Part shown: piece by piece, positions 8,781-12,055 of the stretch
Position numbering within the stretch: the stretch's first letter is position 1
Layout: each line of letters opens with the position of its first letter
Program-made: the position numbers and the translations under genes
Notes under the pieces: model-generated
Databases searched by the model: none
The model's input: only the letters and a program-made list of their open reading frames with translations
Told to the model about the DNA's origin: nothing
Source: Methylobacter sp.
GTDB taxonomy: Bacteria; Pseudomonadota; Gammaproteobacteria; Methylococcales; Methylomonadaceae
Reading direction: 5' to 3'
NCBI GenBank assembly: GCA_026399025.1
Contig: JAPLRU010000050.1
Coordinates: 1-38,407, forward strand
DNA length: 38,407 bases

Positions 8781-9347
8781 TTATAAGCCGCTCTTTGCCG
8801 TTGCAACTCTGATTAATTCATCCACTTCAAGCGCCGTATTAGCAAATTTACCGGACAGGGCCGAGTATTCGGCAACCCCTGTCGCCACGTCGACAACCAA
8901 GTCCGGCGCTTTAACGCGTTCTGAAATCTCGTTTTTAATCTGTACCGCGACTTGTTCGGCTTTTTTCAACGGCGAACCCGGCAGCGCAATCAGGAAATCC
9001 TGCTCGCCCATTCTTGCAGCAATATCGACGCCCGACCTGATGTCGTCTTGAAAACAATCGGCCACACTACGCAATACCGCATCCATTTCAAATTCAGGTA
9101 AATTATTTTTAGCTTTAAAATCTTTCAAGCTGATAAAAAGAATGGAAAAAGGAAAACCGTTGCGTCTGGAGTTTTCAACTTTTTCTTTTAAGCGGCCCAG
9201 CATGGTTTCTTTAGTCATTAACTGAGTTAGCGGATCTAAGGGGATATGTTCTCTATCCCATGTTTCCTGGGCTTCCAGCCGCAGCACGTTGATAATGCCT
9301 AAGGAGCAGGCCAGCAATAATCCCAATATCCAAGTGAAATACCACAT
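8781..9347 (-). CDS. CydX-like peptide fused to a degenerate GGDEF domain
   Basis: Residues 1-28 (MWYFTWILGLLLACSLGI, continuing to VLRLEAQE) match CydX/YbgT, the single-span miniprotein that stabilises cytochrome bd oxidase. The family MWYF.WILG start and a glutamate at residue 25 are present. Normal CydX ends at about 35-40 residues, but this protein runs to 188. From about 38 it is a GGDEF fold: DPLTQL (38-43), FISLKDFKAKNN (71-82), ARMGEQDFLIALP (111-123), VATGVAEYS (154-162). The active motif reads GEQDF instead of GGDEF, the metal-binding Asp of the D.D.FK strand is Ser73, and the RxxD inhibitory site is off by one, so cyclase activity is unlikely. The gene follows cydB by 9 bp with TAGGAG overlapping the cydB stop, so it belongs to the operon. 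The fold could sense a nucleotide or be structural. Confidence 0.88.
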   Translation of the reverse strand: MWYFTWILGLLLACSLGIINVLRLEAQETWDREHIPLDPLTQLMTKETMLGRLKEKVENSRRNGFPFSILFISLKDFKAKNNLPEFEMDAVLRSVADCFQDDIRSGVDIAARMGEQDFLIALPGSPLKKAEQVAVQIKNEISERVKAPDLVVDVATGVAEYSALSGKFANTALEVDELIRVATAKSGL

Positions 9348-9356
9348 AATAATCTC

Positions 9357-10496
9357 CTAGTAAGCCGAATGATCGTTCTGATGAATGTGTTCCGGCGTTA
9401 TTTTGCCGCGCAATATCCGAAAGACCCATGCGGTATAAGCCAAAACGATGGGTAAAAAAATCAGCGTAGCTCCGAGCATCAGTTTTAAAGTGGTCAGGCT
9501 GGAACTGGCGTCCCACACGGTCAACGAGCTATTCATCGCCGAGCTTGACGGCATCAGAAAGGGAAACATCGACACGCCCGCGGTTAAGATAATGGAGGTC
9601 AGTGTTAATGAGCTGGTGATAAAAGCCAGACCCGGACGCTCGATTTTTGACAGCACGATGGTGATGGCGCCGGCCACGAAAGCCAAGGCCGGAATAGTCC
9701 ACAACACCGGATAATGCGCATAGTTATCCAGCCATAATCCCGGTGCTTTCTGAACCATTTTTGCCAAGGGGTTGGAGGGGGCATTAGGGAGAATTTCGGT
9801 GGTGATATGGTAACCGTCAATATGACTCACCCAGAGCCCCGCCACTGCAAAAATCGCCAGCGTTATGAGGGCGGTAACGGTGACTACGGTTTTGCAACGT
9901 TGGTTGATGTCGCCTCCGGTCTTGATCTGTAAATACACCGCACCGTGCATAATCAGCATCGATAAGCTAAGCACTCCGGCGACCAACGCAAAGGGGTTTA
10001 ATAAGGCCCAGAACGAACCGGTGTAAAAAATACGCATGTCGTTATCTAAATGAAACGGGACGCCTTGCAATAAGTTGCCGAAGGCGACGCCGAAAATTAA
10101 CGACGGTACGAACCCGCCGACAAACAATGCAATATCCCAGTTATTGCGCCATTTTTGGCTGGGCAGTTTACTGCGGTAATCAAAGCCTATCGGCCGCAAA
10201 AATAACGCAAATAAAGTCAATAGCAACGCAAAATAAAACCCTGAAAAGGCCACCGCATAAGCGATAGGCCACGCCGCAAACAACGCGCCGCCCGCAGTGA
10301 TAAACCAAACTTGGTTGCCTTCCCAGACCGAGCCTATCGAATTAATAATGATGCGGCGTTCGGTATCGTTTTTGCCTAAAAACGGCAACAGAATGGCGAC
10401 GCCCATGTCAAAGCCGTCGGTAATTGCAAAGCCGATCAATAACGCGCCCAACAGGGCCCACCAGATTACGCGCATGGTTTCATAATCAAAAATCAT
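9357..10496 (-). CDS. cydB: cytochrome bd ubiquinol oxidase subunit II
   Basis: CydB is the multispan partner of CydA in the inner-membrane bd oxidase, which passes electrons from quinol to oxygen at low oxygen. The 379-residue protein shows the family start ([20 protein letters not shown]), the conserved DGFDMG, the segment [22 protein letters not shown], and [10 protein letters not shown] after helix 3. Eight or nine hydrophobic segments can be seen. Its ATG overlaps the cydA stop by 4 bp (ATGA), with AGGAG just upstream. Confidence 0.97.
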
Positions 10497-12055
10497 AGTG
10501 ATGCTCCTGTGGCGATTTCAAAATGATAACGGCCTTTATGCAGGCTGCTCGGACCTAACTTGATGAATTTGAGCATCAAGAACATTTCGATGGCTAAAAA
10601 TACGGTATATAAGCCGATGTAACCGGCCAAGCTCAGGTAAATGTCCAGCTCGGTTAAGGACGATGTGCTTAAAAAGGTCGGCAAAACCTCCGCAATCGTC
10701 CAGGGTTGACGGCCGAATTCGGCGACAAACCAACCCAGTTCGGAGGCAATCCAGGGCAAAGGCATCATGTAAAGGCTGGCGCGTAACAGCCATTCCCGTC
10801 TGCATTTACGCACCGAGCTGGCGATTACTGCAAAAATAAAGATGCCGAGCATGATAAAGCCGCAAGCCACCATGATGCGGAACGTCCAGAATAAAGGCAC
10901 AACCCTGGGAATTGAGTATTGCGTTGCCAATTCTATTTGTTGGTCGGTCGCATCGACGACGTTTTCGGTATAGCGCTTAAGCAATAGGCCATAGCCCAAA
11001 TCCTGCTTGTAACGGTCGAATTCCGCCCGGACATTGTCATCTTTGCTGCCGCTTCTTAACGTTTGCAATAATGCGTAAGCCTTCATGCCGCTACGAATGC
11101 GCAAGCGATTTTTGTCCAGAATTTCCGATAAACCGGTAATCGGCTCATCGATAGAACGTGTGCCGATTAAGCCTAATACCCAGGGAATTTTGATGGCGTA
11201 ATAGGTTTCCATGGCTTCCTGGTCGGGGATGCCGAGGGCGGTAAACGCGGCGGGTGCCGGTTCGGTGTGCCATTCGGCTTCAATAGCGGCCAGTTTGGTT
11301 TTTTGGACTTCGCCGGCGGTATAGCCGCTTTCATCGCCCAACACAATGACCGACAGGATGGCTGCCAAGCCGAAACCGGCGGCAATGGTATAAGAGCGTT
11401 GCGCAAAAGCGGCATCGCGGCCTTTCAGCATGTAGTACGCGCTGATGCCTAACACAAAAACTGAAGCGGTGGTGTAACCGGCAGCTACGGTATGGACGAA
11501 TTTAACCTGGGCGGCCGGATTCAATAACAGATCGGCAAAGCTGGTGATCTCCATGCGCATGGTTTCGTAGTTAAAGTTAGCGCCGGCCGGGAATTGCATC
11601 CAACCGTTAGCCACCAAAATCCACAATGCGGATAAGTTGGTCCCGAACGCAACCAGCCAAGTCACCAGCAAATGTTGGCCTTTGCCCATCTTATCCCAGC
11701 CGAAGAAAAACAGGCCGACAAAGGTGGATTCCAGAAAAAACGCCATCAAGCCTTCAATCGCCAGCGGCGCACCGAAAATATCGCCGACATAATGCGAAAA
11801 ATACGACCAGTTCATACCGAACTGAAATTCCATGGTCAGACCGGTGGTCACGCCCAGCGCGAAATTGATGCCGAATAATTTTCCCCAAAACTGGGTCATA
11901 TCCTTGTAGATTTCTTTGCCGGTCATCACGTAGGTCGATTCCATAATCGCCAGTAAAAACGACAAACCTAATGTTAACGGAACAAATAGAAAATGATATA
12001 GAGAAGTTGCTGCAAACTGCCAGCGCGATAAATCAACCACAGCCTCTGAGATCAT
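10493..12055 (-). CDS. cydA: cytochrome bd ubiquinol oxidase subunit I
   Basis: CydA carries haems b558, b595 and d and the quinol site. The 520-residue length and a long Q loop place it with E. coli type CydA. The key residues all fall two positions later than in E. coli: His21 and His188 (haem ligands), Glu101 and Glu109, Lys254 and Glu259 in the quinol loop, Arg393 and Met395, and the GRQPW signature at 448-452. AGGGGA precedes the ATG. It is first in the operon cydA-cydB-cydX/GGDEF, with a candidate FNR-type site about 62-75 bp upstream. Confidence 0.98.

Follow-up and report, generated by a model that had tools for sequence, protein, structure and literature searches.

The usual view of CydX is that of a bare structural helix in the bd oxidase. 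In a contig of Methylobacter sp. (JAPLRU010000050.1; the whole 38,407-nt stretch analysed is called the window here), the third gene of a cydAB operon opens with a CydX peptide and runs on into a sequence that resembles a GGDEF domain. Is this one real protein, does it serve as the CydX of its oxidase, and what would a GGDEF domain do there? The operon lies on the minus strand in the order cydA, cydB and fusion gene, with the following features.

10493..12055, minus strand: cydA (PF01654, 556 bits), overlapping cydB by 4 nt
9357..10496, minus strand: cydB (PF02322, 344 bits; TIGR00203, 505.9 bits)
9354..9359, minus strand: Shine-Dalgarno-like TAGGAG of the fusion gene, overlapping the cydB stop
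8781..9347, minus strand: cydX-GGDEF fusion gene, 188 amino acids plus stop, ATG start, open frame
9264..9347, minus strand: CydX part, residues 1-28, single membrane helix (PF08173, 54.7 bits)
9237..9263, minus strand: junction, residues 29-37, helix predicted to residue 33, then the DxLT turn (D38, T41)
8784..9236, minus strand: degenerate GGDEF-fold domain, residues 38-188, with S73 at the metal Asp position, GEQDF at 114-118 and R104xxxD108

The fusion gene starts 9 nt past cydB. Its product matched the Pfam CydX family YbgT_YccB over residues 1-27 (54.7 bits; cut-off 26.2) and GGDEF (PF00990) over residues 37-162 (58.3 bits; cut-off 23.8), as well as the NCBIfam models for CydX (TIGR02106, 50.6 bits; cut-off 31.6) and GGDEF (TIGR00254, 59.1 bits). 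The AF2 model of the protein has a helix at residues 2-33, with pLDDT of 66-69 at residues 21-40. These matches confirm the initial annotation, which had described a third cydAB-operon gene that begins with a CydX peptide and continues into a GGDEF fold with GEQDF and Ser73. At 188 residues, the protein is outside the size range of plain CydX (∼30-50 residues), and it is instead classed as a fusion protein that includes a CydX part.

Conservation of the fusion in Methylococcales

We searched genomes of the order, class and phylum with a profile built from 17 fusions, scoring at most 8-10 candidates per genome. The profile matched 69 of the 311 genomes of the order (Methylococcales, going by record titles), many of which are metagenome bins, in 15 of 50 genera; the matches belong to family f1 and once to f5. 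The match was full-length in 66 of the 69 genomes (14 genera, two families). The other three are a match ending at a contig end (G948), a remnant covering positions 57-170 only, which lacks the CydX part and is the sole basis of the fifteenth genus (G245), and broken fusion pieces (G207). A stop was observed within the full-length matched stretch of G213 and G241, the frame of G213 (L126) ending at residue 187.

A scan of genome contigs yielded at least 80 loci. In at least 40 of them (L009-L048) most of the fusion's length is present; L049 carries a broken copy. Records of 38 of these 40 loci are titled Methylobacter, Methylomonas, Methylococcaceae or Methylococcales. The exceptions are L044, whose record title is Gammaproteobacteria, and L042, which is titled Epsilonproteobacteria yet has a Methylococcales-type fusion and is probably misbinned. 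From 89 loci we read 60 distinct fusion proteins, one of which (L236) is cut by a contig end. cydB lies directly upstream of 59 of the 60, and the record of the remaining one begins 80 nt upstream; in these 59 the fusion starts 11-68 nt past the last aligned CydB residue. The fusion thus recurs beside cydAB in several genera, which the initial annotation had named as support for a real subunit.

Outside the order, the class search covered 368 other genomes (three of these from Methylococcales) without a match to the fusion, and the phylum search of 299 genomes gave no fusion and one GGDEF-only match, an ordinary GGEEF protein (G785). The class was also searched for other CydX fusions, frames of 86 codons or fewer being taken as too short for a GGDEF domain. 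CydX matched in 54 of 321 genomes, 3 of them from Methylococcales, and no fusion was found among the eight candidates that were read, with open frames of 81 to 982 codons. In seven of these the CydX motif lies ∼36-51 codons before the stop, and they were rejected as fusions, since the open stretch ahead of an ordinary CydX is unrelated to it. The CydX motif had no match in the remaining one (G578, below cut-off).

A quick CydB tree (110 rows) placed all 40 fusions and the broken L049 on one side of a branch with an SH-aLRT support of 83, given for the union of two fusion subclades with 99 each. None of the other 69 rows, all with short CydX, was within this clade; the program warned of long branches, which meet among the short-CydX groups. 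The single clade suggests, as the simplest reading, one origin of the fusion, tied to one cydAB operon lineage. CydB proteins of the fusion operons are 60-91% identical to that of the window, the nearest rows including Methylobacter species (best 91%), and CydB of same-genus members with short CydX (L153, L154) is ∼52% identical to it. The single-contig genome G179 has two near-identical cydAB-fusion operons (L140 and L141), 1.3 Mb apart.

The CydX part is highly conserved. W2, Y3, W6, G9 and E25 are kept in all 60 fusions, position 23 is R in 56 and W in four, and PF08173 matched each of the 17 fusions scanned with an E value of 0.01 or better. We found no second, stand-alone CydX in any of the 65 carrier genomes covered by both the CydX and the fusion searches. 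There was one CydX match in 64 of them and two in G179, both of which are fusions; these counts come from genome tables, and for part of the 65 genomes the single CydX match was equated with the fusion by inference. The CydX match of G207 is the CydX part of its broken copy. Because no other CydX match exists in these 65 genomes, the fusion would be the CydX subunit itself, a physical and needed part of the bd oxidase complex. Other members of the order have a short CydX of 32-52 residues with a different cydAB. In one such group (L139, L164, L119 and loci like them), the short CydX ends in a conserved C-terminal two-cysteine tail, CDIDTHGIDQSCDSL or close to it. Two tandem cydAB-CydX sets were seen in Shewanella corallii (L072, 2278-8263).

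Motifs of the GGDEF domain and selection on it

We compared the fusions with 21 ordinary GGDEF domains of the window's own genome. These controls were selected from 27 loci; the six that did not show [DE]xLTxLxN[RK] within an open 110-codon frame were left out, so the control set favours intact domains. We observed the following. GG[DE]EF is present in none of the 60 distinct fusion proteins and in all 21 controls. The position of the metal-binding Asp, which we take to correspond to D327 of PleD, is Ser in 48 and Asn in 12 of the 60 fusions, and Asp in every control. Of the C-terminal AD pair, the Asp is found in 4 of 51 fusions and in 21 of 21 controls. D38 and T41 of the DxLT turn, on the other hand, are retained in 60 of 60. 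R104, D108 and an extra residue between them (RxxxD) are likewise found in all 60, so that the I-site is one residue longer than in any of the controls and the intact RxxD is absent. The initial annotation had seen no proper inhibitory site; this stands as far as the spacing is concerned, but both R104 and D108 are present and invariant. A special meaning of this invariance is weakened by the finding that the two residues are also present in 21 of 21 ordinary domains, and they may be structural. E55, K56 and N59 (48, 49 and 48 of 51 fusions, respectively) form a polar stripe on the first helix of the domain that is absent from ordinary domains and is a candidate contact surface.

Loss of GG[DE]EF and of the metal Asp, together with the extra I-site residue, indicates that the domain is not a cyclase. 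Judged by these motifs it is a catalytically dead GGDEF domain whose active site has been lost, in agreement with the non-catalytic domain, tethered to a CydX part, that had been proposed at the outset.

Selection was estimated with our own version of the Nei-Gojobori count, applied to 129 pairs drawn from 51 proteins; the pairs are not independent. Pooled dN/dS was 0.014 for CydX residues 1-28, 0.075 for residues 29-37 and 0.174 for the domain (residues 38-188), within which it climbs from 0.095 (residues 38-72) through 0.138 to 0.238 at the end. Purifying selection acts on the domain, though less strongly than on the membrane part.

Possible roles of the domain beneath the oxidase

The available part of the cryo-EM study PMC6853902 places the C-terminus of CydX in the cytoplasm, and the portion at hand of a review (PMC8951039) agrees. 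The opposite orientation is given in the accessible text of PMC4325964, from work that preceded the structures. Following the structures over the earlier work, we infer that the domain is cytosolic, where the initial annotation had also put it.

We propose that this gene supplies a cytochrome bd oxidase with its CydX subunit, whose cytosolic tail has turned into a dead GGDEF domain. The CydX helix would be seated in CydA as in E. coli and would extend, as a short stalk, to the GGDEF fold beneath the oxidase. There, the domain could act as a protein-docking or assembly module that holds oxidases together or binds a partner, a function that would be independent of c-di-GMP. Such a CydX-anchored module is the best explanation that we can offer, and a quite possible one; docking of other proteins had also been suggested in the initial annotation. 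A fuller version is more tentative: the GGDEF fold may have been recruited as a stable, c-di-GMP-independent part of the oxidase, fused to CydX, which would gather bd oxidases into clusters or dock a partner from the cytosol, fixed once in Methylococcales and kept after other GGDEF and EAL genes were lost.

According to the part of PMC8585947 that was available, AppX makes up most of the interface between the two oxidases of the cryo-EM dimer of bd-II, and its authors are undecided whether this dimer exists in the membrane. The place of AppX at this contact suggests that CydX may be positioned where paired domains could link two enzymes. We found no partner protein for the domain. There was no general conserved downstream neighbor among 33 loci, a PsiE-like gene following the fusion in 14 and a CydC-like one, in opposite orientation, in eight (both named from sequence). 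Residues specific to the fusion clade are T223, G298 and S414 in CydA (3 of 520; 41 fusion and 70 other rows), and M1 and K202 in CydB (2 of 379; 49 fusion and 95 other rows), of which M1 corresponds to the start codon and is probably artefactual. With almost no clade-specific residues, no strong new contact surface is visible on the oxidase, and a remodelled CydA/CydB surface was rejected.

Alternatively, the domain could be a passive cytosolic tail, an inherited accident that is kept only since its misfolding would damage the CydX subunit. PMC4325964 describes free variation of the CydX tail among other bacteria and reports that tail mutants of E. coli were functional in the conditions used. 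The climb of dN/dS to its highest value at the end of the domain also fits a passive tail, and so does the broken domain of G207, which sits on the same contig as L049. In this copy (L049, 5001-5953; L204) residues 1-65 are kept and are followed by the piece 95-179 twice; an intact CydX part with a broken domain means that the domain is not needed everywhere. However, a stop after residue 35 would shed the load, and no short-CydX row (0 of 69) is found within the fusion clade. The full-length match is kept in 66 of the 69 matching genomes, and pooled dN/dS stays at 0.1-0.24. We therefore consider a passive tail unlikely.

The domain could also be a ligand sensor that binds c-di-GMP or another nucleotide, perhaps at RxxxD, and tunes the oxidase. 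R104 and D108 are invariant although the GGDEF motif is not, which could point to a retained ligand site, and a GGDEF match is present at 468-599 of a solved ammonium transporter chain. PF00990 was searched in 30 of the 69 carriers (12 chosen mainly for low GGDEF counts, plus 18), and 28 had at least three matches, the fusion included; the genome of the window has 53. Against a sensor, the same R and D are equally invariant in the ordinary domains, and all 60 fusions have one residue inserted in the site.

Two carriers, both metagenome bins, have a single PF00990 match each, which is the fusion. These are G121 (99% complete; a 3.5-Mb bin with L033 and L219, its fusion gene being L033) and G236 (84% complete; fusion gene L027). 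Neither has an EAL match over cut-off, each showing one weak EAL-like match below it, and HD_5 had no match in G121 and two in G236. It is unusual for a GGDEF domain to persist where, as in G121, further GGDEF, EAL (over cut-off) and HD_5 matches are all lacking. PilZ matched once in each, in open frames of 113-123 codons, so the c-di-GMP receptor fold is not wholly absent there. If sensing or making c-di-GMP were its job, the domain should be under relaxed selection in G121 and G236; it is instead constrained. Domain dN/dS is 0.088 for the L027-L033 pair and 0.024 for L027 versus L025, whose genome (G110) has four GGDEF matches; the values in the window's own clade are 0.11-0.24. Structure prediction still gives a folded L033 domain (mean pLDDT of 80.5, with lower values over the CydX part). 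The full-length, constrained fusion of G121, a genome with no further GGDEF, no EAL (over cut-off) and no HD_5 match, argues against c-di-GMP sensing as the conserved role. Loss of the other GGDEF genes on the G121 branch may be recent, and both genomes are metagenome bins, so that the sensor reading is weakened only. Together with the motifs missing from all 60 fusions and the I-site insertion, these data weaken the suggestion of the initial annotation that the domain senses c-di-GMP or GTP, and we regard a ligand sensor as unlikely.

It is very improbable that the CydX and GGDEF parts are two separate proteins, arising from an internal start or a sequencing error. The window gene has GTG at codon 21 and ATG at codons 44 and 49, but none of these three internal starts (codons 21-70 inspected) is preceded by a Shine-Dalgarno-like site, and codons 44 and 49 sit within the domain, past DxLT. 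Shine-Dalgarno-like sites are present at the first codon in 49 of 51 genes, whereas internal ones number eight, scattered, in the 51. The frame is open in 60 distinct fusion genes. A read error or a split gene, which the initial annotation had allowed for, was rejected in view of this recurrence, which also speaks against chance, and of the lack of internal ribosome sites. Finally, an active diguanylate cyclase linking respiration to c-di-GMP synthesis, which the retained GGDEF fold and DxLT turn would favor, has a negligible probability and was excluded, since neither the metal Asp nor GG[DE]EF is present in any of the 60 fusions and the Asp of the AD pair is rare in them compared with the controls.

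Relation to known systems

No description of a CydX-GGDEF fusion was found, by title or opening of the abstract, among the papers listed in searches of the openly accessible literature. Those listed for CydX or YbgT together with GGDEF are, judging from their titles, on a genome, on an expression profile and on prophage genes. The obtainable text of PMC4325964 has no word beginning with fus or methylo, and in the available parts of PMC6956133 and PMC6222125 there is no mention of the fusion. This is consistent with the initial view that the fusion had not been characterised; it is a real, conserved and apparently undescribed variant of the bd oxidase. A methanotroph lineage has made CydX the anchor of a folded domain in 14 genera, and the fusion offers a simple handle on the organisation or regulation of the high-affinity oxidase in methane oxidisers.

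In its N-terminal 27 residues (W2, Y3, W6, G9, E25), the fusion resembles CydX and AppX (PF08173; TIGR02106) of E. coli bd-I and bd-II, and like E. coli CydX it is the third gene of a cydAB operon and the only CydX match of its genome. The E. coli proteins have 37 and 30 residues (available parts of PMC6853902 and PMC8585947), whereas the fusions have 187-209 with a folded domain. This domain resembles the GGDEF domain of diguanylate cyclases (PF00990), with WspR 3i5b as its best structural match; the nearest NCBIfam model, SiaD (NF038266), scored 66.2 bits, far under its cut-off of 290. Unlike in these cyclases, the metal Asp and GG[DE]EF are absent, the I-site reads RxxxD and the C-terminal motif is not retained. 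In degenerate GGDEF proteins, a dead cyclase fold is kept for another role. Such proteins act by contact or as receptors (PMC5635695 and, for BcsE, PMC7439463, both as far as available). A GGDEF match in a membrane metabolic protein is also found in the ammonium transporter of PDB 8qj3, 8qj4 and 8qpf, which is a transporter, not an oxidase. BcsE, by the title of PMC7439463, senses c-di-GMP, and the distribution of the fusion argues against such a role for it. Unlike these degenerate GGDEF proteins, the fusion would form part of a respiratory enzyme.
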